64,000 bases of DNA, taken from the NCBI RefSeq assembly GCF_017311415.1, contig NZ_JAEKIS010000004.1, positions 1 through 64,000 of the forward strand, written 5' to 3'. Position numbers and translations under genes: made by a program. Numbering within the stretch: the first letter of the stretch is position 1; the number at the start of each line of letters is the position of its first letter. Under the pieces are notes generated by a model. It ran no database searches, was not told where the DNA came from, and worked only from the letters and a program-made list of their open reading frames with translations. Below, one piece after another: positions 26,535 through 43,918 of the stretch. This DNA is from Salipiger abyssi. GTDB lineage: Bacteria > Pseudomonadota > Alphaproteobacteria > Rhodobacterales > Rhodobacteraceae.

Positions 26535-27284
26535 CTAGCGTCGGCTGAAGATGGCGGAGGCGAGCCATCCCGCGAAGAGCGCAATCAGCGCGGCGGCGAT
26601 CCCGTAGAGCAGCCCGTAATCCTGCGCGGCCCGGTAGATCAGGCGTTGCAGCGAACTTTTTCGAACCGGCAGATCCACGTCCGAACGGCTTAGCACCACA
26701 CCGTCCTCGAGCAGAAAGACCCGCACGTCATAGGTGCCTGGAACGAGGCTCACCGGCAGCGGAATCCGGGCCTGGAACAACACGCCCTGCGACAGTTCGA
26801 CAATGCCCTCCTCCAGCGTGATGCGGCGGCTTTCGCTGGTCAGCCTGCGCATCGCATCGAAGTAGAGATCGGTCTCTTCGCGGGTTTCGAGGCCGATGGG
26901 GGCGGGGATGTAGGTGCTGGGCGCGATGCCGTGCCGCAGGTTTTCCACCGGGTCGACGATCTCGTCCAGCGGGCCGGTCGTCGCAACCGTGTAGAAGCTG
27001 GGCATCCACACGAACTGGGCTTCGCCGGTGAACATCCAGATACCGGCGACCTGTTCCTTGCGGCGCAGCGTGGCGCGACCGGGCGGGCCGGTGACGGTGA
27101 TGACCACGTCGTAGTTGCCCGCCATCCCCCCGGTGGGTGCTCCAAAGACCAGCAGTTCGGCGCCATGGAATCCGGTGGTGATCTCCACCTCGTCGAGACT
27201 GAGGGCAAAGGTGGCCTCGGGCGCATCGGCCGCATTCCCGGCTGCGGGGAGGAGCGCCAGAAGCAGCGCGAGGGCTTTCCTCAT
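26535..27284 (-). CDS. TIGR02186 family membrane-anchored protein of unknown function
   Basis: A 249-residue protein with a signal peptide (KALALLLALLPAAGNAA), a beta-rich extracytoplasmic part (LDEVEITTGFHGAELLVFGA, a basic ATLRRKEQVAGIWMF) and one C-terminal membrane helix near 225-245. This matches the alphaproteobacterial TIGR02186 family, known chiefly for its neighbourhood with TauE/SafE permeases; its role is unknown, probably an accessory subunit. The ATG overlaps the tauE stop by four bases (ATGA), so the two are tightly coupled. It is the last gene of the sulfatase operon starting at 32728. Confidence 0.83.
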   Translation of the reverse strand: MRKALALLLALLPAAGNAADAPEATFALSLDEVEITTGFHGAELLVFGAPTGGMAGNYDVVITVTGPPGRATLRRKEQVAGIWMFTGEAQFVWMPSFYTVATTGPLDEIVDPVENLRHGIAPSTYIPAPIGLETREETDLYFDAMRRLTSESRRITLEEGIVELSQGVLFQARIPLPVSLVPGTYDVRVFLLEDGVVLSRSDVDLPVRKSSLQRLIYRAAQDYGLLYGIAAALIALFAGWLASAIFSRR

Positions 27285-28186
27285 GGCGTTGCCTCCCAGA
27301 ACAGCGCGAACGCTTCCGCAGGCACCCGAACAAGATCGACCGCAACCTTGGCGCTGACCCCAAGCACCAGGATCGACAGCAGGATGCGCAGCTGTTCGCC
27401 GCGTAGCTTTGCCCCAAAGCGCGTGCCCAGCTGTGCACCCACGACACCGCCGATCAGCAGCAGCAGCGCCAGCACGATATCCACCGTGTGGTTGGTGGCT
27501 GAGTGCAATATGGTGGTGAAGACCGACACAAAGGTGATCTGGAACAGCGACGTACCAACGACGACCTTGGTGGGCATTTTCAGCAGGTAGATCATCGCGG
27601 GCAGCATGATGAAGCCGCCGCCGACCCCCATGATCGCCGCCAGCACGCCGCAAAGCAGCCCCACCAGCAGCGGCGGGATGGCCGAAATATAGAGGCCAGA
27701 GGTGCGGAACTTCACCTTGAGAGGCCAGCCCTGACCCCAGCCATGCCCGCGTTTGCGGGGCGCGCTACGGCCGCGCAGCGCTTTGAGGCTCTCGACGAAC
27801 ATCATAAGCCCGATAAAGCCGAGGAAGACCACGTAGAAAAGCTGCACCGCGAGGTCGATCTGACCCAGCGAGCGCAGGAAGGCGAAGAGCCAGACCCCCA
27901 GTGTCGAGCCGACCAGACCCCCGATGAGCAGCACGGTGCCCATTCGGATGTCGAGCGTCTTGCGGCGCCAATGCGCGAGCGCACCCGAGCAGGAGGAGGC
28001 GACAATCTGCACCGCCTGGGTCGACACGGCAACCGCAGGCGGGATGCCGATGAAGAACAGCAGCGGCGTCAGGATGAAGCCGCCGCCGACCCCGAAGAGC
28101 CCGGACATGATCCCGACGAAGGCCCCCAGCCCCACGATGAGGAAGAGGTTCACGGGAATTTCGGCAACGGGGAGGTAAATGTGCAT
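27281..28186 (-). CDS. tauE: Sulfite/organosulfur exporter, TauE/SafE family
   Basis: A 301-residue polytopic membrane protein. Two related halves each open with the glycine-rich TauE/SafE motif: VGIMSGLFGVGGGFILTPLL near 23-42 and CGVLAAIMGVGGGFIMLPAM near 180. Family members export sulfite, sulfoacetate or related anions. It lies 19 bases behind tctA and before a TIGR02186 partner. In this operon it may remove sulfate or sulfite left after ester or sulfonate cleavage; the exact anion cannot be deduced. Confidence 0.87.
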   Translation of the reverse strand: MHIYLPVAEIPVNLFLIVGLGAFVGIMSGLFGVGGGFILTPLLFFIGIPPAVAVSTQAVQIVASSCSGALAHWRRKTLDIRMGTVLLIGGLVGSTLGVWLFAFLRSLGQIDLAVQLFYVVFLGFIGLMMFVESLKALRGRSAPRKRGHGWGQGWPLKVKFRTSGLYISAIPPLLVGLLCGVLAAIMGVGGGFIMLPAMIYLLKMPTKVVVGTSLFQITFVSVFTTILHSATNHTVDIVLALLLLIGGVVGAQLGTRFGAKLRGEQLRILLSILVLGVSAKVAVDLVRVPAEAFALFWEATP

Positions 28187-28205
28187 CCTGTCCTGGCGTT
28201 AGCGA

Positions 28206-29681
28206 TCACATCTTTTTGGAAAAGACCATTATCAGCAGTGCGACGAGGCACAACCCGAGAAACACGGCTGAAATCGGAGATGTGACGAAGGTGCTGAAAT
28301 CGCCGCGCGACAGGAGCAGGGCGCGCCGGAAATTCTCTTCCATCATCGGCGAGAGAATGAAGGCCAGCACCAGCGGCGCCGGCGGAAAGCCGAGCCGCGC
28401 CATGACCAGGCCGAAGATGCCGAAGCCCAGCACAAGGTAGATATCCACCACCGAGGAGTTGATCGAATAGACGCCGATCGACACCAGCACCAGGATGATC
28501 GGGAAGAGCGCGTTATAGGGCACCTGCAAGAGCCGCGTCCAGATCCCCACGAAGGGGATGTTGAGCAGCACCAGCAGCAGGTTGCCGACGAAAAAGCTCA
28601 CCACCAGCCCCCAGAACATCGTCGGATTCTCGGCGATGAAGGTGGGGCCCGGCGTGATGCCGTGGATCATCAGCGCGCCGATCATCACCGCCATGACGGC
28701 GTCGCCGGGCACGCCCAGCGTCAGCGTCGGGATAAAGGCCGCCTGCGCGGTGGCGTTGTTGGCGCTTTCCGGCGCGGTCAGCCCCTCGATCCGGCCCTTG
28801 CCGAAGAGATGCGGCACGCGGCTGAGGCGCAGCTCTACCGCATAGGCGACGAAGGAGGCCATGGCCGCGCCGGCGCCGGGCAGGATGCCGGCAACCGCGC
28901 CGATGGCCGAGCCGCGCCCCATTGCGGGGGCGGACTGGCGCCATTCCTGGCGGGTGGGCAGCATCGAGGAGAAGGAAAATTTCTCGAATGTCGTGGCGTG
29001 GCTGCGCATCGCGATGGTCGAGATGATCTCTGAGACACCGAAGACACCCATGGCGACGGCCACGATGTTCAGCCCGTCGGCGATGGCGGGCAGGCCGAAG
29101 GTGAAGCGGAAGGTGCCCGAGGTGACGTCCTGCCCGACGATGCCGAGGATCAGCCCGATCACCACCATCGACAGCGATTTCAGAATGTCGGACCCGCCCA
29201 CGGCGGCAGCGGCAAAGAGGGCGAATACCATCAGAGAGAAATACTCGGCGGCACCGAATTCCAGCGCGAAGCGGGCCAGCACAGGCGCGAATGAGGCAAC
29301 CAGAACGATGCCCACCATCGAGCCCACCAGCGAAGCGATGGCCGTCATGAAGAGCGCCACAGAGGCGCGCCCGTCCTTCGCCATCGGGTAACCTTCGAGG
29401 CAGGTGACGGCGGCGGCGGGGGTGCCGGGCAGGTTCAGCAGGATCGAGGCGGTCGAGCCGCCATATTGCCCGCCGTAGTAGATCCCGGCCAGCATAATGA
29501 TGGCCTCGGACGGTTCGATATAGAAGGTCAGCGGCAGCAGCATGGCGATGGCGGGCAGGGGGCCGATGCCGGGCAGCACGCCTACGACCATGCCGAGCGT
29601 CACGCCGAGGAAGCAGTAGAAGAGGGCCGACCAGCTCAGCGCGATGCTGGCGCCGTCCGCGAGATTTGCGAAGAGTTCCAT
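28206..29681 (-). CDS. tctA: Tripartite tricarboxylate transporter permease, large subunit TctA (system 1)
   Basis: A 491-residue permease with about eleven membrane helices and the two TctA signature loops: GVLPGIGPLPAIAMLLPLTFY with YYGGQYGGSTASILLNLPGTP near the N-terminus, and GAVAGILPGAGAAMASFVAYAVE with TLGVPGDAVMAVMIGAL later. It carries out ion-driven uptake of the ligand delivered by the TctC-type binding protein. It is 10 bases behind tctB. Substrate is set by the binding protein; context suggests a sulfated or sulfonated acid. Confidence 0.95.
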   Translation of the reverse strand: MELFANLADGASIALSWSALFYCFLGVTLGMVVGVLPGIGPLPAIAMLLPLTFYIEPSEAIIMLAGIYYGGQYGGSTASILLNLPGTPAAAVTCLEGYPMAKDGRASVALFMTAIASLVGSMVGIVLVASFAPVLARFALEFGAAEYFSLMVFALFAAAAVGGSDILKSLSMVVIGLILGIVGQDVTSGTFRFTFGLPAIADGLNIVAVAMGVFGVSEIISTIAMRSHATTFEKFSFSSMLPTRQEWRQSAPAMGRGSAIGAVAGILPGAGAAMASFVAYAVELRLSRVPHLFGKGRIEGLTAPESANNATAQAAFIPTLTLGVPGDAVMAVMIGALMIHGITPGPTFIAENPTMFWGLVVSFFVGNLLLVLLNIPFVGIWTRLLQVPYNALFPIILVLVSIGVYSINSSVVDIYLVLGFGIFGLVMARLGFPPAPLVLAFILSPMMEENFRRALLLSRGDFSTFVTSPISAVFLGLCLVALLIMVFSKKM

Positions 29682-29691
29682 GTGCGGGCTC

Positions 29692-30174
29692 TCAGTAAAG
29701 CTTGAAGGGAAGGCCGAAGCCCAGCACGAAAACCACCCAGGCGCCCACCGGTGTCAGCAGTGCGATCATGAACAGGCGCTTGAGGTTTGGCTTTTCGGCG
29801 GCGAGGCCGGAGATCATCACCAGCGCGAAGGTGGCGATCAGCAACCCGGCACTTTCCAGCAGCGCGGCGAAGGCGGCGATGCCCAGCGGCACCAGCAGCA
29901 TGGGCCGCAGCCTGTGCCAGCGTTCGGTCCAGTCGATGGTCTCGGGCTCGGCATCCTCTGCCGGGGCTGGGAAGAGGCCGTGCCGCACCGTGATTGCCAG
30001 CCCCAGAAGGATGGCGCAGCTGCCGAGCAGCATCGGGAAGTACCCTGTGTCCATCCGGCGCAGCGAGCCGATGCCGTAGCCGACCGAGGTCACGGTAACG
30101 CCGATGCCAATGGCCAGCATGATGGCTCCGGCGATCAGCCCGCCTGCATCGGGGGCGAATGTCCTGCGTGTCAC
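29692..30174 (-). CDS. tctB: Tripartite tricarboxylate transporter small subunit TctB (system 1)
   Basis: A 160-residue protein with four hydrophobic helices, the layout of TctB. The GTG at 30174 was chosen because AGGGAGGG precedes it by five bases; the frame stays open upstream into the sulfatase gene but that part has no TctB character. TctB is a small membrane partner of TctA. It lies between a sulfatase gene (22 bases) and tctA (10 bases), so the sulfatase splits the usual tctC-tctB-tctA order. Confidence 0.87.
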   Translation of the reverse strand: MTRRTFAPDAGGLIAGAIMLAIGIGVTVTSVGYGIGSLRRMDTGYFPMLLGSCAILLGLAITVRHGLFPAPAEDAEPETIDWTERWHRLRPMLLVPLGIAAFAALLESAGLLIATFALVMISGLAAEKPNLKRLFMIALLTPVGAWVVFVLGFGLPFKLY

Positions 30175-30196
30175 GTTTACCCTCCCTGGGTCGCGT

Positions 30197-31678
30197 TCAG
30201 GCCGAGCCGACGGCGACGGACGGGTCGCTGGCCGGAACCTGCGGATAGTGAAAGCCGCGCTGGCCAGACAATCCGCGATTGTCGGGAGTGGCGTCGGCGG
30301 GTTCGGGGAGACCGACAAAGCGGTCGCCCTCGATCATGTCGAGATCGCTGCCATAGAGATGTCCGCGCAGCAGCGTCTTCATCTTTTCCAGCGTCTCGGC
30401 CTGGGCCGGATCGGCGGCCAGATCGTGCTGTTCGCGCGGATCTTCCATCATGTCGAAGAGCTGGAAGCGGTTGCCGGCGGGATACCAGATCAGCTTGTGC
30501 TGGCGGTCGCGGATCATCCGCGTGGCTTTGGCCCCGGACTGGCTTTCGCCATAGAGGTGATCGCGAGTGTCGGGCGCCAGCAGCGAGCTGCCCTCGACAC
30601 CCTCCGGGATCGCCACGCCCGCCATGTCGAGCATTGTCGGCATCAGATCGTGCAGCGCGACCAGCCGGTCGCTGGTGGCATTGCGCCCGATGCGGTCGTG
30701 CCTGCGGGTGTCGATCACCAGCAGCGGTACATTGGCCGATGCATCGTACATCAGCCTTTTGCCGAACATGCCGTGATCGCCCAGCATGTCGCCGTGGTCC
30801 GAGCAAAAGACGATAATGGTGTCGTCAAGGATCCCTTCCTCGCGCAGCGTGCCGATCAGCAGGCGGATCTGGTGGTCGATATGGGTGCAGAGCGCATAGA
30901 ACGCGCGCCGCGTGTCGGCAAGCTGCGCGGGCGGAAGCGCCGCGTAATAGCCCCGGACCGAGCGCAGCAGCGCAGGCATCGTGGCGGTCTCGGCCGACCA
31001 GTCGCTTTGCAGCGGGGTCGCCACGTCGCGGCGGGCGTAGCGGTCGAAATAACGTTGCAGCGGCACCAGCGGCGGGTGGGGATGGGTGTAGGAGACGTGC
31101 CAGAAGCCGGGCCTTGTGGGGTCGCGCCGCTTGATCTGCCGCGCGGCGGTGCGCGTGGTCCAGTTGGTCACATGCAGGTCGTCGTCCAGATGCCAGGTGT
31201 TCCAGCCGTATTCGTTGTTGCTCATGCCGTGGGTGAACTGCTCGCCCGGATGGCCCCGGTCGGCGAGAAACATCTCGTAATCGTCGGGCCCGCCGAGATG
31301 GCCGCGGCCTTCCTCGGCCAGCAGCGCGTCGTCAAAGCCGATGCGGTCGCGCGGCGGGAAGACATGCAGCTTGCCGATGGCGCCGGTCTGGTAGCCGGCG
31401 GCGGAAAAGGCCCCCGCCAGCGTCTGCGCCTTGGCGGGCATCCGCAGCGCCGGCTGGAAATCGCGGTCGCCATGGCCGCGCGCGGTCAGGCCGGTCATCA
31501 TCGAACGGCGCGAGGGGATGCAGATCGGCGTTTCGGCATAGCAGTTGCGGTAGAGCGTGCCGGAGCGCGCCAGCATGTCGAGCGTCGGCGTCTCGATGTC
31601 GGGATGGCCCATGCAGCCCAGCAGATGCGCGGGCCACTGGTCCACGGTGACAAAAAGCACATGCGGTTGATCGGACAT
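30197..31678 (-). CDS. Sulfatase, type I (formylglycine) family, no signal peptide (sulfatase 1)
   Basis: A 493-residue alkaline-phosphatase-superfamily sulfatase. The modification motif CIPSR starts at C53, the N-terminal metal ligand is in VDQW (D13) and the C-terminal metal motif is CSDHGDMLGDHG. There is no signal peptide, so hydrolysis should be cytoplasmic. The ATG at 31678 has GAGGTGG at suitable distance; an ATG one codon earlier is closer than ideal. It is inserted between tctC and tctB of a TTT transporter and is strongly similar along its length to the sulfatase at 51823. It releases sulfate from an imported ester; the substrate is unknown. Confidence 0.93.
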   Translation of the reverse strand: MSDQPHVLFVTVDQWPAHLLGCMGHPDIETPTLDMLARSGTLYRNCYAETPICIPSRRSMMTGLTARGHGDRDFQPALRMPAKAQTLAGAFSAAGYQTGAIGKLHVFPPRDRIGFDDALLAEEGRGHLGGPDDYEMFLADRGHPGEQFTHGMSNNEYGWNTWHLDDDLHVTNWTTRTAARQIKRRDPTRPGFWHVSYTHPHPPLVPLQRYFDRYARRDVATPLQSDWSAETATMPALLRSVRGYYAALPPAQLADTRRAFYALCTHIDHQIRLLIGTLREEGILDDTIIVFCSDHGDMLGDHGMFGKRLMYDASANVPLLVIDTRRHDRIGRNATSDRLVALHDLMPTMLDMAGVAIPEGVEGSSLLAPDTRDHLYGESQSGAKATRMIRDRQHKLIWYPAGNRFQLFDMMEDPREQHDLAADPAQAETLEKMKTLLRGHLYGSDLDMIEGDRFVGLPEPADATPDNRGLSGQRGFHYPQVPASDPSVAVGSA

Positions 31679-31715
31679 CATCCACCTCGGGTTCGTCGGA
31701 AAATTCGTGGAAAAG

Positions 31716-31740
31716 CGGGCGCCGGGTGGGCCGGCGCCCG
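31716..31740 (-). other. Intercistronic hairpin after tctC (system 1)
   Basis: A perfect 10-bp inverted repeat CGGGCGCCGG / CCGGCGCCCG with a 5-base loop lies 10 bases past the tctC stop and before the sulfatase start. No U-tract. Likely a 3' mRNA stabiliser for the binding-protein message. Confidence 0.6.
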
Positions 31741-31750
31741 TGGGTCGAGA

Positions 31751-32728
31751 TCAGTCGCGGCTGGCGCCCGACATCTCGACCAGCTTGCCGAGCGTGTCGG
31801 CCTGCTCGGTCACAAAGGCGGTGAACTCCTCGGAGCTGCCGCCGACAAGGCCGATGTTCAGGGCGCCGAACCGCTCCTGGATCTCGGGCCGGGCGAGGAT
31901 TTCGTCCAGCGCGCCGTTCACTTTCCCGATGATTTCGGGATCGGTGCCCTTGGGCGCCATGATGCCGTGCCAGGAGGTATAGACCATGTCGACACCCTGT
32001 TCCTTCATCGTCGGCACGTCGGGCAGGGCGGCGACCCGCTCTTCCGAGGTGACCGCGAGTGCACGCAGGGTGCCGTCCTTGATCATCGGCACCAGCGTGC
32101 CATCGATCATCACGCCGACCTCGCCGCTCATCAGCGCGGTGCGCGCCGGGGCCGAGCCCTGATAAGGGATGTGTAGCGCTTCGATCCCGGCGATGGAGCG
32201 GAAGAGCTCGAACGCCAGGTGCTGCGCGGTGCCGACACCGGCGGAGGCGTAGTCGAGATATTCGGGGTCTTCCTTGGCCCGCGCGATCAGGTCGGGCAGG
32301 TCGGCGACCTCTTCGAGCCGGGGCCCGACGCCCATGACCAGCGGGATCGAGGTGATCTGGATCACCGGGTCGAAATCTTCCAGCGGTTCGTAAACGAGGT
32401 TGTCATAGACATGCGGGTTTATGCCCATGGTGGCGATGTCGCCCACGACCAGCGTGTAGCCGTCCGCCTCGGCGCGAGAGGCTTCGCCCACGCCCACGGT
32501 GCCACCGGCGCCGCCACGGTTCTCGATCACCACGGGCTGGCCCAGCAGTTCCGAGAGCGGTTCGGCCAGAGTGCGGGCGATGAGGTCGGTGTTGCCGCCC
32601 GGCGGGTAGGGTACGATGATGTTGACGGGATTCTGCGGCCAGCCGTCCTGGGCCAGCGCGGGCGCGGCGCTCAGGCCGAGCGCTGCGGCGCCTGCCAGCA
32701 TGAGGGCACGACGGGTGATGGTGAGCAT
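31751..32728 (-). CDS. tctC: Tripartite tricarboxylate transporter binding protein TctC/Bug (system 1)
   Basis: A 325-residue periplasmic protein of the Bug family. Signal peptide (TRRALMLAGAAALGLSAAPALAQ) is followed by the family motif IIVPYPPGGNTDLIAR, ENRGGAGGTVG and YASAGVGTAQHLAFE. Bug proteins bind carboxylated or sulfonated organic acids and deliver them to TctAB. ATG at 32728 is annotated; a TTG at 32737 has the better-placed GGAGGA and may be the true start. First gene of the minus-strand operon tctC-sulfatase-tctB-tctA-tauE-TIGR02186, divergent from a LysR gene. Confidence 0.94.
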   Translation of the reverse strand: MLTITRRALMLAGAAALGLSAAPALAQDGWPQNPVNIIVPYPPGGNTDLIARTLAEPLSELLGQPVVIENRGGAGGTVGVGEASRAEADGYTLVVGDIATMGINPHVYDNLVYEPLEDFDPVIQITSIPLVMGVGPRLEEVADLPDLIARAKEDPEYLDYASAGVGTAQHLAFELFRSIAGIEALHIPYQGSAPARTALMSGEVGVMIDGTLVPMIKDGTLRALAVTSEERVAALPDVPTMKEQGVDMVYTSWHGIMAPKGTDPEIIGKVNGALDEILARPEIQERFGALNIGLVGGSSEEFTAFVTEQADTLGKLVEMSGASRD

Positions 32729-32789
32729 ATGTTGCAAGAGTTCCTCCTCCTTCTGTCGATGGATCCTGAGCGCGGCTCGGATCGGACTG

Positions 32790-32835
32790 ATAAGTGTTGC
32801 CATAGGTGTATAATTAAGAAATAAGTGATGCTTAT
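32790..32835. promoter_or_regulatory. LysR-type operator region between tctC and lysR (system 1)
   Basis: The perfect inverted repeat ATAAG-TGATG-CTTAT (32821-32835) contains a T-N11-A core and lies 17 bases before the LysR start. A partial copy, ATAAGTGTTGCCATA, is at 32790-32804, 31 bases away. Such paired boxes in a divergent gap are the standard arrangement for LysR control of the neighbouring operon. Confidence 0.55.
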
Positions 32836-32852
32836 CATTTTTCGGGGGCAAG

Positions 32853-33740
32853 ATGGACACGGGACAGATGCGGGCAATCGTCGTTCTCGCCGAAGAACTG
32901 CATTTTGCCCGAGCCGCGCGCAAGCTCGGCATCAGCCAGCCGGCGCTGTCGCAAAAGATCCAGAAGGTCGAAACCGAGATCGGCATGACACTCTTCGACC
33001 GGGGCCAGCGGCATGTGGCGCTGACGCCTGCGGGGACGGCTCTGGTGGGCGATCTGCCCGAGCTGCTGACCCGCATCGACACGGTGCTGGCCCGCGCGGG
33101 CCGCATCGCGCGGGGCGACGAGGGGTTTCTGCGTGTGGGCTTTGTCGAGAACGCCAGTTTTCACCTTGTCCCTCATGTGATTACCCGGCTGCGGCGGCGC
33201 TTTCCCAATGCTCAGATCGAACTGGTCGAGATGATCTCGCCCGACATTCCCGACGCGCTGGCGCGGGGCGATATCGACGTGGCGCTGACCCGGCCTTTGC
33301 CCACCGATACGCTGCGGGTGCATGAGGTGATGCGCGAACGCTATTTCGTCGCGCTGTCCGATGGCGACCCGCTGGTGCGGCAGGACGCGGTGCCGGTGCG
33401 CGCGCTTGGCGGGATGACCTTCATCGCGGCCGCCGGGCGCAAGTCGAACTACCTGCGCGGCCAGTTCGCAGCGTTGTTCGAGCGGCACGGTTTTCACCTC
33501 GGCATCGGGCAGGAGGTGAACCAGCTACCGGCGATCATCGCGCTGGTGGCGGCGGGGGGCGGGTTCACGATTCTGCCGCGCTCGGCCACCGGTCTGTCGA
33601 TTCCCGGCGTCTGTTACCGTCCGATTCGCGACGCGGACGCACCCGAGGCGGTGCTGCACGCGTGCAGCCGCGAGCATGACACCAACGCGCTGGTGCAGGC
33701 TTTCTTCGCCTTCGCACTGGAGCTGCGCAACCGGGTTTAG
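32853..33740 (+). CDS. LysR family transcriptional regulator (sulfatase/TTT system 1)
   Basis: A 295-residue LysR protein with the N-terminal winged helix (FARAARKLGISQPALSQKIQKVETEIGMTLFDRGQRHVALTPAG) and a periplasmic-binding-like effector domain. GGGG precedes the ATG. It is divergent from the tctC-sulfatase operon and is its probable activator, with the transported compound or a product as inducer. Its stop overlaps the convergent GntR gene stop by three bases. Confidence 0.92.
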   Translation: MDTGQMRAIVVLAEELHFARAARKLGISQPALSQKIQKVETEIGMTLFDRGQRHVALTPAGTALVGDLPELLTRIDTVLARAGRIARGDEGFLRVGFVENASFHLVPHVITRLRRRFPNAQIELVEMISPDIPDALARGDIDVALTRPLPTDTLRVHEVMRERYFVALSDGDPLVRQDAVPVRALGGMTFIAAAGRKSNYLRGQFAALFERHGFHLGIGQEVNQLPAIIALVAAGGGFTILPRSATGLSIPGVCYRPIRDADAPEAVLHACSREHDTNALVQAFFAFALELRNRV

Positions 33741-34441
33741 GTCACGCCGGCCCGCACCAGCGCGGCAATGGCGCTGTCGAAATGTTCGGTCATCACACGT
33801 TCGGCCTCTACGCTGTCGCGGGCGGCGATGGCGGCGGCGAGGCGGGCGTGACATTGCAGGTTCTCCAGCCGGTTTTCGCGGGTGGCGCGCGCCTGCCAGC
33901 CGATTTCCCAGATACGCCGTGTGATGGCGCCGTAGCTTTCGATGAGCAGCGCAAAGAGCGCATTGCCCGAGGCGGCGCCGATCTCGGTATGCAGCGCTAC
34001 GTCCAGCTCGCGGATCTCGCCCGGGTCGCCATCGATTCCGGTCAGCATGGCCTCGGCGATCTCGGTCATGCGCCGCGCCTGCGCCTCGCTCCGGCGCAAC
34101 GCGGCTAGCGCGGCGGCGCGGATCTCCAGCGTGCGGCGCACATCCATCATCTGTTGCAGCGTCAGTTCGCCGGTATAGGCGGCGTGGTCCAGCAGCGTGG
34201 CCATGGCGGTGGGGCTGACCCCGGCGACGCGGGCGCGGCGGCCATTGCCGACCTCGACCACGCCAAGCGCGGCCAGCGCCCGCATCGCCTCGCGCACCAC
34301 GTTGCGCGACACGCCCAGCCCGGAGGCGATGGTCTGCTCGGCGGGCATCGCGTCGCCCACCTTCAGGCCCTCATCGCGGATCATCTGGCGCAGGTCCTGC
34401 ATCACCTGATCGACCCGCCCGGGCTTTTTCTCGTCGGTCAT
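33737..34441 (-). CDS. GntR family transcriptional regulator (FadR/FCD type)
   Basis: A 234-residue regulator: winged helix ([41 protein letters not shown]) and a C-terminal FCD domain ([39 protein letters not shown]). It is divergent from the sugar-acid dehydratase and KDG kinase genes, which it likely represses in the absence of a sugar acid. The ATG at 34441 is the only start fitting the domain; the longer open frame is not coding. Confidence 0.9.
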
Positions 34442-34570
34442 CGGCAAACCTATCCTACAATTCCTTGCATTCTGATGGTCCAAAATGCCAATACTGCCGC
34501 AACAGAGTTTGCCCCGCGACCGGCCCGGCTGCAACCGCCGACCGGCGCCGCCCCTCAGGAGGTGCCTAAG

Positions 34571-36364
34571 ATGACCGCCAAGATCCGCCCCCAGGACCTG
34601 CGTTCCGCCAAATGGTTCAACAATCCCGACGATCCGGAGATGACCGCGCTCTATCTGGAGCGCTACCTGAATTACGGGCTGACGCGCGAAGAGCTTCAGG
34701 GCGGTAAGCCGATCATTGGGATTGCCCAGACCGGTAGCGATCTGTCGCCCTGCAACCGCCACCATATCGAGTTGGCCAAGCGGGTGCGCGACGGCATCAT
34801 CGCCGCCGGCGGCATCCCGATGGAAATTCCGGTGCATCCGATTCAGGAGACCGGCAAGCGCCCCACGGCGAGCCTTGACCGCAACCTCGCCTATCTCGGG
34901 CTGGTCGAGGCGCTGCACGGCTATCCGATCGACGGTGTGGTGCTAACCATCGGCTGCGACAAGACCACGCCGGCGCTGCTGATGGCGGCGGCGACGGTGA
35001 ACATTCCCGCCATCGCCTTTTCGGTGGGTCCGATGCTGAACGGCTGGTTCAACGGCGAGCGCGCCGGGTCGGGCAGCGTGATCTGGAAGGCGCGCGAACA
35101 GCACGCGGCGGGCGAAATCGACGATGACGGGTTCTTCGATCTCGTGGCTTCGTCCGCGCCGTCGGTGGGCTATTGCAATACGATGGGCACCGCCTCGACG
35201 ATGAACTCGCTGGCCGAAATCCTGGGGATGCAGCTGCCCGGTTCCGCCGCGATCCCGGCGCCCTATCGCGAGCGCGGGCAGATGGCGCGGGCCACCGGCG
35301 CGCGCATCGTCGAGATGGTGTGGGAGGATCTGCGCCCGCTCGACATCCTGACGCGCGCGGCGTTCGAGAATGCCATTGTCGGCTGTTCGGCGCTTGGCGG
35401 CTCGACCAATGCGCCGATCCATATCAATGCGATTGCCGCCCATGCGGGCGTGACGCTCGACAATGACGACTGGCAGCGGCTGGGCCACAAGGTGCCGCTG
35501 CTGGCCAATATGCAGCCCGCCGGGATCTATCTGGGCGAGGATTTCCAGCGCGCGGGTGGCGTCCCCGCCATTCTGGGCGAACTGATCGAGGCCGGCCTGC
35601 TGCCGCATCCGCAGGCGGGCACTGTCGCGGGCCAGCCACTTTCGGCGGGGGCCATCCGCAGCCACGAGCCCGAGGTGGTGCGCCCGGTCGATGGCGCGCT
35701 GCTGGCGCATGCGGGGTTCATGAACCTCAAGGGCAATCTCTTCGACAGCGCGATCATGAAGACCTCGGTCATTTCCGAGGATTTCCGCGCCCGCTACCTG
35801 TCCAACCCCGACGACCCCGAGGCCTTCGAAGGCACGGTCTTTGTCTTCGACGGGCCGGAGCATTTCCACGCCACCATCGACGACCCGGCACTGGCGGTCG
35901 GGCCGGACGCGGTGCTGGTGATGCGCGGGGCGGGACCGCTGGGCTATCCCGGCGCGGCGGAGGTGGTGAACATGCGCCCGCCCGCCTATCTGCTGAAACA
36001 GGGCGTGCAGGCGCTGCCCTGCATCGGCGACGGGCGGCAATCGGGCACCTCCGGTTCGGCCTCGATCCTCAATGCCTCGCCCGAGGCGGCGGCGGGCGGC
36101 AATCTGGCGCTTTTGCGCAACGGCGACCGCATCCGCGTGGATCTGCGCAAGGGCCGGGTCGATGTGACGTTGACCGAGGCAGAGCTGGCCGAGCGTCGTG
36201 CGGCGCTGGATGCCGCTGGCGGCTATGCCGTGCCGGAAAGCCAGACGCCATGGCAGGCGATGTTCCGTGCCGGTGTGGCGCAGCTCTGCGACGGCATGGT
36301 GCTGAAGGGCGCGCCGGAGTTCCGCGATATCGCGCGCAAGCATATGCCGCGCAACAATCACTGA
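34571..36364 (+). CDS. IlvD/Edd family sugar-acid dehydratase (arabinonate/xylonate dehydratase-like)
   Basis: A 597-residue Fe-S dehydratase. The opening ([37 protein letters not shown]) is typical of the L-arabinonate/D-xylonate branch rather than dihydroxy-acid dehydratase. Candidate cluster cysteines are C61, C129 (TIGCDKT) and C202 ([11 protein letters not shown]). It converts an aldonic acid to a 2-keto-3-deoxy acid. AGGAGGTG lies seven bases before the ATG. It is followed 10 bases later by a KDG-kinase-like gene, so a short sugar-acid route is encoded. Exact substrate is unknown. Confidence 0.93.
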
Positions 36365-36374: not shown

Positions 36375-37283
36375 ATGCCAAGGCTGCTATCCGTGGGCGA
36401 GGCCCTTGTCGAACTGGCGCCCTCGGGCGAGCCGGGACTGTTTCGCGCGGGCCATGCGGGCGACACGCTGAACACTGCCTGGTATGCCCGCGCCATGCTG
36501 CCGTCCGACTGGCGGGTGGCCTATTACACCGGGGTCGGGGCGGACGAGCCTTCGGCGGGGCTGCGGGCGCTGCTGGAGGGTGCGGGGATCGAGGCCGACC
36601 GGCTCTTCACCCATCCCAAACGCACGCTGGGTCTCTACATGATCGCGCTGAAGGATGGCGAGCGCAGCTTTACCTATTGGCGTGACAGCTCTGCCGCGCG
36701 CACATTGGCAGAGGATCCGGCGCGGCTGGCGGCAGCGCTGGCGGGTTGCGACGTAATCCACCTTTCGGGCATCACCGTAGCGATCCTGCCGCAGGAGGAT
36801 CGCGACAATCTGCACGCGGCGCTGGCGGCGCTGCCCGAAACGGTGACCGTGGTCTTCGACCCGAACCTGCGTCCGCGCCTTTGGGAAGACGCCGAGACCA
36901 TGTGCCGCGAGGTGACGCGCTTTGCCGCGCTGGCGAGCATCGCATTGCCCAGTTTCGATGACGAGGCGGCGCATTTCGGCGATGCCGATCCGGAGGCGAC
37001 ACTCGCGCGCTATGGGGCGCTCGGCTGCGCCGAGGTGGTAGTGAAGAACGGCGAGGGGCCGGTGCATGTTGTTGCGCATGGCGTGCGGTTCGTCAGCATG
37101 CCCGATGCGGTGACCCGCCCGGTCGACACCACCGGGGCGGGGGACAGTTTCAACGGCGGCTATCTGGCGGCGCGACTGACGGGGGCCGAGGCACAAGAGG
37201 CGGTGGCCCAGGCGCAGGCGCTGGCGCGGAAGGTCGTTGGCTGGCGCGGGGCGCTGATGCCGTTCGACCGGATCACCGGCTGA
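36375..37283 (+). CDS. kdgK: 2-dehydro-3-deoxygluconokinase-like PfkB sugar kinase
   Basis: A 302-residue PfkB-family kinase. The ATP/anion-hole signature DTTGAGDSFNGGYLA lies near residue 250, and N-terminal GEALVELAP and GDTLNTAWYAR resemble KdgK. It would phosphorylate the keto-deoxy acid made by the dehydratase encoded just upstream. No KDPG aldolase gene is in the window, so the last step must be elsewhere. A terminator-like hairpin follows. Confidence 0.88.
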   Translation: MPRLLSVGEALVELAPSGEPGLFRAGHAGDTLNTAWYARAMLPSDWRVAYYTGVGADEPSAGLRALLEGAGIEADRLFTHPKRTLGLYMIALKDGERSFTYWRDSSAARTLAEDPARLAAALAGCDVIHLSGITVAILPQEDRDNLHAALAALPETVTVVFDPNLRPRLWEDAETMCREVTRFAALASIALPSFDDEAAHFGDADPEATLARYGALGCAEVVVKNGEGPVHVVAHGVRFVSMPDAVTRPVDTTGAGDSFNGGYLAARLTGAEAQEAVAQAQALARKVVGWRGALMPFDRITG

Positions 37284-38825: not shown

Positions 38826-38835
38826 GGGACGCGGC

Positions 38836-39324
38836 CTATCCGAACAGGGTGAAGTTGAAGATGCCGAGCGGCAGAACCACGTTCAGCAGCCCTTCGAACA
38901 CGGCGGCCACGATCAGCGTGGCCGCGATGGCGCCCGCCAGCGAAGCGATGGGGCCGAGGCCGAGCATTGCAAAGAGCAGCGTCAGCAGGACCGGCGTCGC
39001 GATGTAATAGCCCAGCCAGCCGAGGCACAGCAGATAGGCCACGAAAAGCGCGGTCGCGATCATGGCGAGCCGCGTGGTCGGCGTGGGATCGAGCGGCGAG
39101 TGCTGCGAGATCCGCCCGGCGACGATGCGCAGCGCGTTCACCGCGGTCAGCCCCAGCAGGATCCAGGCGATGATCGCGGGATAGGCGGCGGCGTTGGACA
39201 TCGGCCCGCCCGAGGCCACGCTCTGCTCGGTCAGGGAGGTCGCGTTCTGCCAGAAGATCAGCAGCGGCACCGCGCCGATCAGCAGCCAGGCAAGCCAGTC
39301 ATAGGCATGTTCACGCAGTTTCAT
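38836..39324 (-). CDS. tctB: Tripartite tricarboxylate transporter small subunit TctB (system 2)
   Basis: A 162-residue protein with four hydrophobic helices (DWLAWLLIGAVPLLIFW, AYPAIIAWILLGLTAVNAL and two more), fitting TctB. GGAAG precedes the ATG. It stands between tctC and tctA; the gap to tctC holds a hairpin at 39355-39381. Confidence 0.88.
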   Translation of the reverse strand: MKLREHAYDWLAWLLIGAVPLLIFWQNATSLTEQSVASGGPMSNAAAYPAIIAWILLGLTAVNALRIVAGRISQHSPLDPTPTTRLAMIATALFVAYLLCLGWLGYYIATPVLLTLLFAMLGLGPIASLAGAIAATLIVAAVFEGLLNVVLPLGIFNFTLFG

Positions 39325-39403: not shown

Positions 39404-40393
39404 TCAGAGCCCGTTCAGCTTCTCGGTTTCCCACTCGATGGCCTTTTGGCCGTGCTCCAGCTCGCCGGCGACGGCGCCGACGATTTCCTCGTACTGGTCG
39501 GGCGAAAAGCCGGTCGGCACATAGCCCATGTCCAGCAGGCGCTGATGCACGTCGTCGCGCTTCAGCGCTGCTTCCATGGCGTTGCGCAGGGTGGTCACGA
39601 CATCCTCGGGCGTGTCCTTGCGCACCAGCCACCAGTTCCAGCCCGAGGGGCTGAGATTGGCCATGCCGATATCGATATCGAATGCGCCGACCAGCGGTGC
39701 GCCGCCATAGGTGGTCGAGGCATCCTCCATGTCGGACAGCACCGCCAGCACCTTCATGTCGGCCTTGTTGACGTTGTAGACGCCGGGATTGGTGACCATG
39801 AAATCGAGGATGCCGCCGCGCATGTCGCGCACGGCCACGTCGATCTCGGGGTAGGGGACAAGCTGCGCAACGGTGTCGGTGGCCATCAGCGTCGCGGCGC
39901 CGACCATATGCGGGATGCCGCCCGCCACGCCGGGAGAATAGCGCAGATCGCCGGGGTTCTCTTTCATATAGGCGATGAGATCCGAGAGATCGTCGAAGCG
40001 GTCGTCATCGGCGCGCACGGCAATGGCAAAGCTGTTCGAGGTGGCCGACCACAGCGGGGTGAAGTCCTGATAGGTCCAGTCGGCATTGCCCTTCATCGGC
40101 TGGATGACCAGCGGCGCGACATAGCCGTCGAAGAGCGTATAGCCGTCGGCATCGCGCGACAGCGCGGTCTCGAACGCCTTCACGCCGCCCGCGCCGGGGG
40201 TCGAGACCACCGAGATGTTCACGCCCAGCTCCTCGCCCATGGCGTCGGCGATCACCTGGCTGGCTGCCATGGTGGCGCCCGGCGCCCAGGGGTAGATGCT
40301 TTCGATATTGCGCTCGGGAAATTCTGCCAGCGCGGGGCCGGCCAGAGCGGCAAGCCCGAGGGCCGCCGCGACGAGGCGAGATGTCAGTGTCAT
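39404..40393 (-). CDS. tctC: Tripartite tricarboxylate transporter binding protein TctC/Bug (system 2)
   Basis: A 329-residue periplasmic protein. Signal peptide TLTSRLVAAALGLAALAGPALAE; the family's glycine loop is altered to IYPWAPGATMAASQVIAD, and the later VSTPGAGGVKAFETALSRDADGYTL is Bug-like. It is a divergent member, so ligand preference likely differs from system 1. The ATG at 40393 has GGGAGGA six bases upstream; an earlier in-frame ATG at 40411 lies inside the sulfatase stop region and lacks a site. It is 14 bases behind sulfatase 2. Confidence 0.88.
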   Translation of the reverse strand: MTLTSRLVAAALGLAALAGPALAEFPERNIESIYPWAPGATMAASQVIADAMGEELGVNISVVSTPGAGGVKAFETALSRDADGYTLFDGYVAPLVIQPMKGNADWTYQDFTPLWSATSNSFAIAVRADDDRFDDLSDLIAYMKENPGDLRYSPGVAGGIPHMVGAATLMATDTVAQLVPYPEIDVAVRDMRGGILDFMVTNPGVYNVNKADMKVLAVLSDMEDASTTYGGAPLVGAFDIDIGMANLSPSGWNWWLVRKDTPEDVVTTLRNAMEAALKRDDVHQRLLDMGYVPTGFSPDQYEEIVGAVAGELEHGQKAIEWETEKLNGL

Positions 40394-40407
40394 GATGTTC
40401 CTCCCAA

Positions 40408-41937
40408 TCATGCGGTTTCTTTCAGGGTCAGCCCGTACCAGTCATAGGTTTCTGCGGGCGCGTCATGTGCGCGGAATTCGGCGGCGGCCTGCGCCACGAG
40501 GCGGGCCTGCACCGCCGGATTTGTCACCGGCGCTTTCTGCGCCGGATCGGCGGCGAGGTCGTAGAGCCGGGTGACGTCGTCGTCAAAGCCCAGACCGTCG
40601 TTCATCGGCACGCGCTTGGCGTCGGGCAGGGCGTCGATGGCCATCAGCGGCACGCCCTTGGTAAAGTCGAAGCCCGGCACCATGTGGGCGGTCTTCAGCT
40701 CGGCGGCGGTGAAATGCCCGGTCATGTGCTGTGGCGCGAGCGTGTATTCCTTCAGCCCCGGGGCGCGCCAGTCCACCGGGTAGTGATAGAGCACATGCCG
40801 CCCGTCGGCGATGCCCACCGGCCCGCCGAAGATGCCGAACACCGCGCTGTCCCGTACCTTGCCGGACGTGCCCGCCAGCAGCGGCGCGAGGTCATGCGCG
40901 CGCACCTCCGGCGGCAGCGCGGCGCCGTGCAGCCCCAGCAGGGTCGGCATGATGTCGGGCGTCTGGGTGACCGCATCGCAGCGGGTGCCGGCGGCCTGCG
41001 GATTGCGCGGATCGTGGATCATCAGCGGGATGTGGCTGATTTCCTCGTAATAGGGCATCCGGCATTTGCCCCACCAGCCATGCTCCGACAGCAGGAAGCC
41101 GTGGTCGGTGGTGACCACGAGCGCGGTGTCCTTCCACATGTCGTGCCGGTCGAAATAATCCAGCAGGCGCCCCAGATACTCGTCGCACATCGCCACCAGC
41201 GCGGCGTAGTTGGCGCGGATCTCGTCGATCTCGGCCGGATTTTCGGTGACGCGGGCATAATAGGGCCAGTCGAGCGCGCCGCCGTTGTAACCGGTGGGGA
41301 AGGCGTCGCGGAAGCGTTCGGGCGCGTGGAACGGCTCGTGCGGGTCGAAACATTCCAGCATCAGCAGCCAGTCGTCCGCATCGCGGTTGCGGTCGAGGAA
41401 ATCGAAGCCCGCGGCAAAGCATTTCGGGCCGGGGAAATCGGCCTCGTCCTGCATGACCTCGCGGTTCACCATATGCTGGAACCGCTTGCTGGAGCGGTCG
41501 AGCGGATAGTGTTTCTCCGAGAACTCACGGCGGAATTTCTCCAGCGGCGGCGCCACCATCGGCACCCAGGGGTCGTATTCTTGCCCGCGGATGAACTCCC
41601 AGCTGTCGAAACGGGTGTGAAAGCCCGCGCCGCCATCCTCGAAGTAATGCACATGATCGGTGATGAGGTGCGAATAGACGCCCTTGTCGCGCAGGCAGTC
41701 GGCAAAGGAGTTGTCGAAGGCTTCGAGCGGCCCCCAGGAGCGGTGCATGAAGTTCAGCCGCCCGGTGTGAAGATCGCGCCGCGCGGGCATGCAGGGCAGG
41801 GAGCCGGTGTAATGCTGATCGAAGCTCATCGAACGCGCGGCGAGCCGGTCGAAATTCGGCGTGGCGATGGCATCGCCGCCGTAAGCGCCAAGCGCCGAGC
41901 GATTCAGGCTGTCGAAAAGCAGGAAAACTGTGCGCAT
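40408..41937 (-). CDS. Sulfatase, type I (formylglycine) family, no signal peptide (sulfatase 2)
   Basis: A 509-residue sulfatase with modification motif CMPAR at C49, an N-terminal metal aspartate in FLLFDSLNR (D9) and a second metal motif TTDHGFLLSEHG. No signal peptide, hence cytoplasmic. It differs clearly from sulfatases 1 and 4 outside the motifs. It is the first gene of the operon continuing with tctC-tctB-tctA, and faces a LysR gene. The local gene order (sulfatase first) differs from system 1 (sulfatase second). Confidence 0.92.
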   Translation of the reverse strand: MRTVFLLFDSLNRSALGAYGGDAIATPNFDRLAARSMSFDQHYTGSLPCMPARRDLHTGRLNFMHRSWGPLEAFDNSFADCLRDKGVYSHLITDHVHYFEDGGAGFHTRFDSWEFIRGQEYDPWVPMVAPPLEKFRREFSEKHYPLDRSSKRFQHMVNREVMQDEADFPGPKCFAAGFDFLDRNRDADDWLLMLECFDPHEPFHAPERFRDAFPTGYNGGALDWPYYARVTENPAEIDEIRANYAALVAMCDEYLGRLLDYFDRHDMWKDTALVVTTDHGFLLSEHGWWGKCRMPYYEEISHIPLMIHDPRNPQAAGTRCDAVTQTPDIMPTLLGLHGAALPPEVRAHDLAPLLAGTSGKVRDSAVFGIFGGPVGIADGRHVLYHYPVDWRAPGLKEYTLAPQHMTGHFTAAELKTAHMVPGFDFTKGVPLMAIDALPDAKRVPMNDGLGFDDDVTRLYDLAADPAQKAPVTNPAVQARLVAQAAAEFRAHDAPAETYDWYGLTLKETA

Positions 41938-42026: not shown

Positions 42027-42956
42027 ATGTCCTCCTTCGATGCCTTCCTGAACCGCCGGCTGCTGCATTTCCTGGCCACCGCCGATGCGGGCAACATCCA
42101 CCGTGCGGCGGAAACGCTTGGCCTGTCGCAACCGGCGCTGACCGTCAGCCTGCGCAATCTCGAACAGGATATCGACGCGACGCTTTTCGAGCGCTCGGTC
42201 AAGGGGGTTACGCTGACCCCGGCGGGAGAGCTGTTCTACCGCCACGCGGGCGCGTTGCGCACCGCCTCGCGTCAGGCGCAGGACGAGCTGAAGGCGCTGC
42301 GCACCGGCGAGGCAGGCACGCTGCGCATCGGCGCGGGGGTGGCCTGGTCGGCGACGGTGCTGCCGCAGGTGCTGCGCGATTTGCGGCGGGATTATCCGGG
42401 CCTTGCCATCGACCTTCTGACCGGGGTGGGCGATCAGCTTGCCATGCAGTTCGCCGAAGGGCGCATTGACCTGCTGCTGGTGGCGGGCGGGCTGGCCGGT
42501 CACGAGCTGAGCGATGCGCGGCGCGAACAGCTTGTGACCCTGCCGATGCGGCTGGTCGTGTCGCATGATCACCCGCTGGTGGGGCGCGGGCCGGTCGGGG
42601 TCCGGCAGCTCGCGGGGTATGACTGGGTCGGCTTTTACGACGACGACAGTTTCGTGCAGCTTGCGGCTTTGCTGACGGCGCGCCACGGGCTGGCGCCGCC
42701 GCGCATGGCGATGCGGGCGAATTCGGTCGCCGCGCTCAGCACCTTTGTGCGCGGCACGGATGCGGTGATGGTGGTGATCTCGTCGCTGGCCTCGGCGATG
42801 CGCGACGACGACCTGGTGACGCTGCCGCTCGAAGAGCCGCTCTGGGACATGCCGGTCAGCCTGTGCTGCCGCGAGCTGGTGGCCGGCCGTCCGGTGACGC
42901 GGGACTTCACCGAGAGGCTGCGTCGCGCCATCCTGGCGGCGGTCGAGGGCGGCTAG
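42027..42956 (+). CDS. LysR family transcriptional regulator (sulfatase/TTT system 2)
   Basis: A 309-residue LysR protein: winged helix with NIHRAAETLGLSQPALTVSLRNLEQDIDATLFERSVKGVTLTPAGE and a C-terminal effector domain. Divergent from the sulfatase 2 operon and its likely regulator. Its stop overlaps the stop of the convergent FGE gene by two bases. Confidence 0.92.
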   Translation: MSSFDAFLNRRLLHFLATADAGNIHRAAETLGLSQPALTVSLRNLEQDIDATLFERSVKGVTLTPAGELFYRHAGALRTASRQAQDELKALRTGEAGTLRIGAGVAWSATVLPQVLRDLRRDYPGLAIDLLTGVGDQLAMQFAEGRIDLLLVAGGLAGHELSDARREQLVTLPMRLVVSHDHPLVGRGPVGVRQLAGYDWVGFYDDDSFVQLAALLTARHGLAPPRMAMRANSVAALSTFVRGTDAVMVVISSLASAMRDDDLVTLPLEEPLWDMPVSLCCRELVAGRPVTRDFTERLRRAILAAVEGG

Positions 42957-43918
42957 CCCGCGTCGGCGGCCACCCGGAACCCGCTGTTCGAGGTCGAGCT
43001 GTCGGGGTCATTCCTGGTGCGGGAATGGACGTGGTAGCGGTCGCAATAGCTGACATGGCAGAGGAAGGATCCGCCGCGCTGCACCTTGCCCGTGCCGCTC
43101 TCGGGGCCCTTGGGGTTGCGCAGCGGGCCGGGGCCGGGTGCGCGCGGGCCGAACCAGTCGGCGACCCATTCCCAGACATTGCCGGTCATATTGTAGAGCC
43201 CGTAGCCGTTCGGCTCATAGGCGGTGACGGGGGCGGTGCCGACAAAGCCGTCCTCGGCGCTGTTCTCGTCGGGAAAGCGGCCCTGCCAGGTGTTCATGGC
43301 ATAAGCGCCGCCGGGCACCAGCTCATTGCCCCAGGGGAATTTCTTGTTGACCAGCCCGCCGCGTCCGGCACGCTCCCATTCGGCTTCGCTCGGCAGGCGC
43401 AGCCCGGCCCAGCGGGTATAGGCCAGCGCGTCGTACCAGGTGATATGCGTCGCCGGATGGTCTTCGCGGGTCGTCACATCGCTGCCGGGGCCTTCGGGCG
43501 CGGCCCAGTAGGCGCCATCGACCTTGCGCCACCAGCGCAGGCCCGGCGGATGCTCGGGCCAGTCGTCGGCGCACGCCAGCAGCAGGTGAAAGACATAGCT
43601 CCAGCCCTCGTGCTCGGCGACCGTGCGGTATCTGGTGGCGGCCACGAAACGCGCGAATTCGGCATTGGTGACGGCGGTCGCCGAGATGCGGAACGGGTCG
43701 AGCCGCACCCGGCGGCGCGGGCTGTCGAGATCGGCGGCAAAGGTCGATTTGCGCGCCCCCATCTCGAAGAAACCGCCGGGGATCGGGCGCAGCTCCGCAG
43801 CCAGCGCGGCCCGGGTGCTGTCATCGGCAGGGCCGATCGCAAGCGCCCGGCGCAGATGCGCGTCGGTGATCTGCTCACCGCCGGCGGGGGCACAACAGGT
43901 CGGTTTTTCCTCGGTCAT
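42953..43918 (-). CDS. Formylglycine-generating enzyme (sulfatase-modifying factor)
   Basis: A 321-residue FGE-sulfatase domain protein. Both catalytic cysteines of true FGE are present as CHVSYC (C287, C292), followed by the RYHVHSRTRNDPDSSTSNSGFR segment that closely follows the human SUMF1 pattern. The protein oxidises the cysteine of CxPxR motifs to formylglycine with oxygen and copper, activating sulfatases. No signal peptide, which matches the cytoplasmic sulfatases here. ATG at 43918 was chosen on family length; an ATG at 43969 is possible and neither has a clear ribosome site. It is the only FGE in the window and can serve all four sulfatases. Confidence 0.94.
   Translation of the reverse strand: MTEEKPTCCAPAGGEQITDAHLRRALAIGPADDSTRAALAAELRPIPGGFFEMGARKSTFAADLDSPRRRVRLDPFRISATAVTNAEFARFVAATRYRTVAEHEGWSYVFHLLLACADDWPEHPPGLRWWRKVDGAYWAAPEGPGSDVTTREDHPATHITWYDALAYTRWAGLRLPSEAEWERAGRGGLVNKKFPWGNELVPGGAYAMNTWQGRFPDENSAEDGFVGTAPVTAYEPNGYGLYNMTGNVWEWVADWFGPRAPGPGPLRNPKGPESGTGKVQRGGSFLCHVSYCDRYHVHSRTRNDPDSSTSNSGFRVAADAG

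Follow-up and report, generated by a model that had tools for sequence, protein, structure and literature searches.

Sulfatase genes in tripartite tricarboxylate transporter operons of Salipiger and a candidate route for the uptake of O-sulfated organic acids

We analyzed a stretch of 64,000 bases (the window) that forms the start of contig C4 (308,654 bases) in a 5.2 Mb genome of Salipiger. A tight minus-strand operon at 26535-32737 carries a sulfatase gene among the genes of a tripartite tricarboxylate transporter (TTT), in the order tctC-sulfatase-tctB-tctA-tauE-TIGR02186, with the regulator gene LysR1 running divergently, and this pairing of TTT and sulfatase genes is more than chance. We consider it probable, by a modest degree, that the TTT takes up an O-sulfated organic acid, which would be desulfated in the cytoplasm and used as carbon while the sulfate is exported. 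The operon, referred to as module 1, and its regulator comprise the following genes, all with Pfam scores far over the cut-off.

31751..32737, minus strand: tctC1, periplasmic Bug/TctC binding protein with a GGxxD motif (PF03401, 228.5 bits)
30197..31681, minus strand: SULF1, leaderless type I sulfatase with the motif CIPSR (PF00884, 138.9 bits; SGSH_C, 70.7 bits)
29692..30174, minus strand: tctB1, small TTT membrane subunit with a GTG start (PF07331, 69.5 bits)
28206..29681, minus strand: tctA1, large TTT membrane subunit (PF01970, 503.4 bits)
27281..28186, minus strand: TauE/SafE (TSUP) anion exporter, proposed for sulfate (PF01925, 181 bits)
26535..27284, minus strand: TIGR02186/Alph_Pro_TM protein, partner of TauE (PF09608, 203.7 bits; NCBIfam TIGR02186, 143.9 bits)
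32853..33740, plus strand: LysR1 regulator, divergent (PF03466 and PF00126, 135.8 and 73.4 bits)

The intergenic gaps along module 1 are 69, 22, 10, 19 and -4 bases, the last being a four-base overlap of tauE with the TIGR02186 gene, and this spacing suggests a single transcript. A first-pass annotation made from the sequence alone had described the same operon with its divergent LysR gene, which the Pfam matches and the spacing confirm. The same gene order was found in plasmid pPABY1 of S. abyssi and in S. thiooxidans. Since tctC has 978 bp in pPABY1, tctC1 likely starts with an ATG at about 32728 and not with the TTG at 32737; the TIGR02186 protein starts at about 27284, not at the listed TTG at 27653, and has a signal-like N-terminus and a C-terminal membrane helix, both recognized by eye.

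The N-terminus of SULF1 is MMSDQPHVLFVTVDQW, with the Pfam domain starting as early as residue 6, which leaves no space for a signal peptide and agrees with the earlier description of a signal-less enzyme. CIPSR is found at residue 54, along with the motif SDHGDMLGDHG. Of the five PF00884 matches in the genome, the window contains four and contig C10 the fifth; all five proteins open straight with the catalytic domain, are leaderless and possess the maturation motif CxP[S/A]R. Because they are leaderless, we infer a cytoplasmic location for them. The whole genome has one match to PF03781, a formylglycine-generating enzyme (FGE) gene at 42953-43918, and the motif together with this enzyme predicts that SULF1 is a type I (formylglycine) sulfatase hydrolyzing sulfate esters. 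The motif is kept in 39 of 40 sulfatases scoring above 450 bits (including the four of the window), the exception being in locus L053. Scores on the choline sulfatase model TIGR03417 (cut-off 433.45) were 213.6 for SULF1, 109.9 for SULF2, 214.7 for SULF3 and 195.6 for SULF4, all below the cut-off. SULF1 scored 406.4 on the arylsulfatase model PRK13759 (cut-off 481), its best NCBIfam model, and 256.6 on that of Mn-arylsulfatase (cut-off 850). Identification of SULF1 as a choline sulfatase or a known arylsulfatase was rejected on these scores.

Module 1 is one part of a sulfatase island that extends to approximately 53 kb. The first-pass annotation was silent on the second TTT-sulfatase operon (module 2, 37341-42956), the FGE gene and the two further sulfatases listed below, as well as on a third TTT-sulfatase operon on contig C10.

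37341..38825, minus strand: tctA2, second TTT system (PF01970, 470.3 bits)
38836..39324, minus strand: tctB2 (PF07331, 51 bits)
39404..40411, minus strand: tctC2, binding protein without GGxxD (PF03401, 71 bits)
40408..41937, minus strand: SULF2, leaderless sulfatase with CMPAR (PF00884, 114.2 bits)
42027..42956, plus strand: LysR2 regulator, divergent (PF03466, PF00126)
42953..43918, minus strand: FGE, proposed sulfatase activator (PF03781, 248 bits; FGE family in the S. abyssi annotation)
48221..49678, plus strand: SULF3, leaderless sulfatase with CTPSR (PF00884, 184.2 bits)
51823..53307, minus strand: SULF4, leaderless sulfatase with CGPAR (PF00884, 129.6 bits), with components of ATP-binding cassette (ABC) transporters within 6 kb

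Module 2 consists of LysR2 and SULF2-tctC2-tctB2-tctA2, with SULF2 and tctC2 overlapping by 4 bases. TctA, TctB and TctC are encoded together in both modules, above the cut-offs of PF01970, PF07331 and PF03401. The operon on C10 reads LysR/SULF2-like/tctC/tctB/tctA and is adjoined by SIS and amidohydrolase/NagA-like genes. SULF3 has a sugar ABC transporter as its neighbor, as annotated in S. abyssi. SULF4 is 59% identical to SULF1 and is adjoined by an RpiR-like regulator, noted by eye.

Gene neighborhoods were scanned at 80 sulfatase loci, in the stretches around TctA1 matches and at 10 plasmid loci, the latter remaining from 12 fetched of 55 listed matches after a near-copy from S. abyssi and a Klebsiella fragment were excluded. 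Counts exclude L090 (a near-copy of the window), L197 (a fragment), the short loci L081-L089 and L098-L137 and loci fetched later, and the sulfatase threshold was 60 bits, which leaves a 48-bit match in L149 uncounted. SULF1/SULF4 relatives were defined at about 48% identity or more. A tctA gene was found within 6 kb of ten of the 17 SULF1/SULF4 relatives and seven of the 21 SULF2 relatives, and within the same distance of one of 78 distant sulfatases used as a control (L006-L009, L011-L080). With the window and S. thiooxidans removed, the proportions are 8/14 vs 1/78 for SULF1/SULF4 (Fisher p=2.7e-7) and 5/19 vs 1/78 for SULF2 (p=9e-4), values which are optimistic because the control is unmatched and contains near-copies. 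Leaving aside pairs between the window and S. thiooxidans, all SULF1/SULF4 and SULF2 relatives in the set are less than 93% identical to one another. The comparison of gene neighborhoods suggested with the first-pass annotation has thus come out in its favor, with tctABC adjoining the sulfatase in several genera, if not beside all relatives, and this synteny supports its proposal of one functional unit in which an intact sulfate ester would be imported and then desulfated in the cytoplasm.

Its picture of a single sulfatase insertion has to be given up. The pairing involves several gene orders and TctA groups, which rules out a one-off insertion into a single TTT operon, and relatives of the sulfatases also stand beside other importers: ABC components near 12 of the 21 SULF2 relatives (two of these with tctA as well), ABC transporters at several loci, and a major facilitator superfamily (MFS) carrier in P. 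caffeinilytica. At this last locus (L091, from a soil Paraburkholderia), which combines a SULF1 relative with the MFS carrier, glutamate-cyclase-domain genes and a GH79-type glycosidase were detected at 3136-6523 and 14848-16356; these neighbors perhaps hint at another sulfated cargo.

In a tree of 66 TctA rows, the 22 sulfatase-linked rows are clustered, with 4 changes as the fewest needed vs 18.5 with shuffled labels and only 2 forced by starred branches; since many rows were reached through sulfatases, the tree gives no frequency. The groups around TctA2, L162 and L093 were sampled mostly via sulfatase loci, and searches starting from their TctAs returned few and mixed matches. With TctA2 as query, both further genome matches at E 1e-150 (the C10 copy and G445) and both plasmid matches at E 1e-120 (the S. 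abyssi near-copy and Chelativorans) lie beside SULF2-type sulfatases. For the L162 group we examined five of eight plasmid records. The TTT of P. seriniphilus is sulfatase-linked, that of Martelella NC18 has a sulfatase beyond a divergent LacI gene, and in M. mediterranea a sulfatase lies about 4 kb away with its own GntR and TRAP (tripartite ATP-independent periplasmic) transporter genes; no sulfatase was found in the stretches of D. shibae and S. profundus. The only genome match of this group, G631, runs out at the contig end and cannot be judged. In the L093 group, G514 has a sulfatase about 4 kb upstream, closer to another TctA, and Pseudosulfitobacter has a DUF3604 gene in place of the sulfatase.

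Three of these loci deserve a separate description. In M. mediterranea (L209, 13650-17509) the sulfatase and GntR genes are divergent from the TRAP genes, which represent another kind of importer. The G514 stretch (L208, 666-10081), which is outside the counts, combines within 10 kb a TctA, a sulfatase resembling SULF3 and another TctC-TctA set. In Pseudosulfitobacter sp. (L213, 9621-11774) the DUF3604 protein occupies the position of the P. seriniphilus sulfatase and may be another hydrolase for the same class of cargo.

The binding proteins provide some indication of the cargo. TTT binding proteins have been described with the motif P-F-x-A-G-G-x-x-D (PMC8556258), and Bug proteins bind carboxylate ligands (PMC5812351). 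Alignment shows PYPPGGNTD in TctC1, with GGxxD kept while F and A differ, and the nearest solved chains are 2dvz, Bug27 and BugD. Since TctC1 keeps GGxxD and its nearest solved relatives are carboxylate-binding Bug proteins, the cargo of module 1 is probably an acid. TctC2 instead reads PWAPGATM, aligned with a gap of one residue and lacking the D, and GGxxD is lost in all six rows of its group among 62 aligned TctC rows (L170 is labelled sulfatase-free in this alignment by a 3.5-kb rule, though SULF2 is in its locus); by Pfam it is still a TctC, with 71 bits vs a cut-off of 27. The TctA2 group was seen nowhere but next to SULF2-type sulfatases, also in the searches with TctA2 itself, and in Hyphomicrobiales SULF2 relatives pair with sugar ABC transporters and DUF4432. 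We tentatively raise the idea, which we regard as doubtful, that the TctABC2-type branch left carboxylates and became dedicated to sulfate-bearing sugars; the recognized anion would then be the sulfate ester itself.

Genes next to module 1 and around related loci point to sugar acids. Between the two modules the window encodes a regulator and two candidate catabolic enzymes:

33737..34480, minus strand: GntR/FCD regulator, frame as scanned (PF07729, PF00392; 705 bp in the S. abyssi annotation)
34568..36364, plus strand: IlvD/EDD-family dehydratase, perhaps a sugar-acid dehydratase (NCBIfam PRK13017 subfamily, 977.8 bits, above cut-off)
36375..37283, plus strand: PfkB kinase, 2-dehydro-3-deoxygluconokinase-like (PF00294, 136.8 bits; NF052444, 230.1 bits, cut-off of 400 not reached)

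The dehydratase scores 515.1 bits on the L-arabinonate dehydratase model, under that model's cut-off. The TTT-sulfatase locus of P. seriniphilus contains genes for L-threonate dehydrogenase (ltnD), 3-oxo-tetronate kinase (otnK), an aldolase and a TIM-barrel protein, and L162 has the same four domain types. A class II aldolase and an FGGY kinase occur near the TTT-sulfatase locus of L160, and MR/MLE genes near those of L005 and L161. L162-type TTTs are also followed by ltnD in D. shibae and adjoined by MR/MLE and L-arabinonate dehydratase genes in S. profundus, the two stretches in which no sulfatase was found. The simplest reading would be that TTTs at these loci transport sugar acids, and that where a sulfatase is present the cargo is the O-sulfate of such an acid. 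O-sulfated threonate or erythronate is a first candidate substrate, suggested by the tetronate-linked loci (P. seriniphilus, L162). Sulfated phenolic acids were also considered as cargo; no aromatic pathway was noticed beside TTT-sulfatase loci, although no search was aimed at one.

PF09608 matches were present in 24 of the 26 genomes searched, and TauE adjoins 28 of the 29 matches (including that of the window), the 29th being a 37-residue fragment. Since the TIGR02186 protein of module 1 reaches the PF09608 cut-off and has TauE adjacent, yet scores 143.9 on the TIGR02186 equivalog model against a cut-off of 255.25, it appears to be a divergent second copy. Four of 16 genomes of the genus (that of the window, G771, G775 and G783) contain such a second, distinct TauE-TIGR02186 copy, each time next to a TTT-sulfatase module; the G783 copy (L245) is located beside LysR2/SULF2 and not after tctA1. 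A SULF2 orthologue of at least 86% identity is present in the same four genomes and in none of the other 12, G777 having a 53% partial match. In L010 and L170, sulfatases have SulP sulfate permeases as neighbors. Given the G783 layout, the co-occurrence within the genus and SulP, the exporter seems tied to the sulfatase and not to one TctA, and sulfate is probably the ion it exports. The TauE of Cupriavidus necator exports sulfite, and Paracoccus pantotrophus is reported to have a sulfate exporter for cysteate degradation (both cited in PMC12421959).

Put together, these data are compatible with the following scheme. In the periplasm, TctC1 would bind a small organic acid bearing an O-sulfate group, and TctA1B1 would move it, intact and inward, across the inner membrane. 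FGE, encoded 11 kb away, would activate the leaderless SULF1, and this enzyme would split the ester inside the cytoplasm. The acid released, most likely a sugar acid, would feed into carbon metabolism, for which the IlvD/EDD dehydratase and KDG-type (2-dehydro-3-deoxygluconate) kinase beside the operon are candidate enzymes, and TauE with its TIGR02186 partner would remove the sulfate.

Several observations weigh against this scheme. The 78 controls behind the co-occurrence statistics are mostly Hyphomicrobiales choline-sulfatase-like genes, not matched to the relatives under study, with near-copies among them (19 pairs of at least 93% identity). A search of 198 genomes of the family with TctA1 gave 44 matches besides that of the window, all of which were fetched, and a sulfatase was present in the fetched stretch for only two of the 44 (L180 and L190), a lower bound because several stretches end with the contig. 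TctA1-like carriers as a group are thus not sulfate-specific, and the pairing is rare from the transporter side, yet recurrent. The link of the dehydratase and kinase to the cargo is loose, since neither an IlvD nor a KDG-kinase relative turned up at the loci of S. thiooxidans and Jannaschia, where both modules are present. Salipiger is the only genus in which TauE-TIGR02186 was seen alongside these modules: the general locus scan detected both genes in the window and S. thiooxidans alone, with S. abyssi and G783 added later. The first-pass annotation was correct in placing the pair in this operon; TauE as a general part of TTT-sulfatase modules is rejected. The co-occurrence within the genus may also reflect one horizontally acquired block.

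The 42 TctA1 relatives without a sulfatase in the fetched stretch fit a different explanation, in which the TTT imports a plain unsulfated carboxylate and the co-regulated sulfatase serves a compound brought in by another importer, all within one regulon for algal matter. The canonical carboxylate motif of TctC1 and the location of two more sulfatases of the replicon near ABC importers are in line with it as well. We nevertheless consider it unlikely, because the sulfatase is packed within the operon (gaps of 69 and 22 bases; overlap of 4 in module 2) across varied gene orders and TctA groups, and because elsewhere relatives of the same sulfatases share their stretch with one ABC or MFS importer. 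In a sulfur-scavenging reading, esters would be desulfated for their sulfur under sulfate limitation, as by the ats genes of Pseudomonas, a system that likewise has a LysR regulator and an importer dedicated to a leaderless type I sulfatase. Seawater is rich in sulfate, which is not limiting in the sea, and a TauE exporter in the operon and sugar-acid catabolic genes around relatives point to carbon use, making scavenging quite improbable.

A similarly low and slightly smaller chance is given to SULF1 and SULF2 acting on phosphate or phosphonate monoesters imported by the TTT, as do phosphonate monoester hydrolases (PMH) of the same superfamily. Such hydrolases are among the PDB matches of the sulfatases, and the phosphoric/sulfuric ester hydrolase model PehA scores 172.7 for SULF1 and 129 for SULF2 (the best NCBIfam model for the latter), both far under the cut-off of 900; the best model for SULF1 is an arylsulfatase, if below its cut-off, and TauE and SulP, which adjoin the genes, are members of families that transport sulfur anions. 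The bonds cleaved by FGE-dependent type I sulfatases are those of esters and not C-S bonds, and the annotation of the 41-kb colinear stretch of S. abyssi lists no gene for sulfonate cleavage, the gene table being incomplete and no model search having been made. The sulfonated cargo that the first-pass annotation had allowed for finds little room here, and import of a sulfonated acid such as sulfolactate with export of sulfite by TauE is very improbable, the least favored of the readings considered. It does have precedents in the TTT SlcHFG, assigned to sulfolactate (PMC5812351), and in a TauE homologue proposed as sulfite exporter in a sulfonate pathway (PMC12421959).

Uptake ahead of desulfation has known examples that use ABC importers. 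Pseudomonas AtsRBC-AtsA likewise imports its substrate and then uses a leaderless type I sulfatase, and differs in having an ABC importer and in scavenging sulfur. In the sulfolactate pathway, SlcHFG is paired with SuyAB and others. SlcHFG of Roseovarius nubinhibens and Chromohalobacter salexigens is a TTT for a sulfur-bearing organic acid, as proposed here, but its cargo is a sulfonate with a C-S bond and not an O-sulfate (PMC5812351). The view of TTTs as usual carboxylate importers in the first-pass annotation thus needs widening. TctABC of Halomonas sp. for galactarate/glucarate matches the predicted type of cargo, a sugar acid, although the cargo listed in that source is unsulfated (PMC5812351). 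BetC, the choline sulfatase of choline-O-sulfate catabolism, is likewise of type I and has a small alkyl sulfate ester as its substrate (PMC5870055), yet its cargo is cationic, and SULF1 stays below the choline-sulfatase cut-off (213.6 against 433). In the acesulfame pathway of Shinella, a plasmid-borne FGly sulfatase gene immediately precedes a cluster of amidase, LysR and TauE/SafE genes; this pathway differs in its xenobiotic cargo and amidase step, the accessible text mentions no TTT, and its importer is a guess with ABC candidates (PMC11500405).

Our literature search, with coverage mostly without subscription journals, found no coupling of TTT and sulfatase, and the word sulfatase is absent from the TTT review PMC5812351 and the TphC paper PMC8556258. 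With TTTs for sulfolactate and galactarate/glucarate already known, the TTT-sulfatase operon is best described as a new variant. Small sulfate esters dissolved in the sea form a carbon pool that is still poorly charted, and marine sulfatases are mostly discussed as polysaccharide tools. If our interpretation is correct, these operons would define an uptake route for small sulfated acids, orphan TTT systems would gain a testable class of cargo, and growth on sulfate esters as carbon would require export of the sulfate.

Some SULF2 relatives are seemingly broken: that of Sulfitobacter SK025 (L199, 9001-10185) is a partial match among transposase genes, and that of G055 (L103) has one in-frame TGA. 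A sulfatase fragment on an IncR plasmid of K. pneumoniae (L197, 9001-9834) covers 57% of SULF1 at 62.9% identity between insertion sequences and is apparently a remnant.

The replicon hosting the island appears plasmid-like. From the TIGR02186 gene to an ADH gene (26535-51774), gene order is colinear with S. abyssi plasmid pPABY1, and SULF1 and SULF2 are 99.4% and 97.6% identical to their counterparts there. A block of ParA-, ParB- and replication-protein-like genes was recognized by eye at 22163-25855, ahead of module 1 in the numbering of the window. It is adjoined at 14259-21917 by flagellar genes resembling flhB, fliR, flhA, fliE, flgC, flgB and fliI, as judged by eye from the translations.

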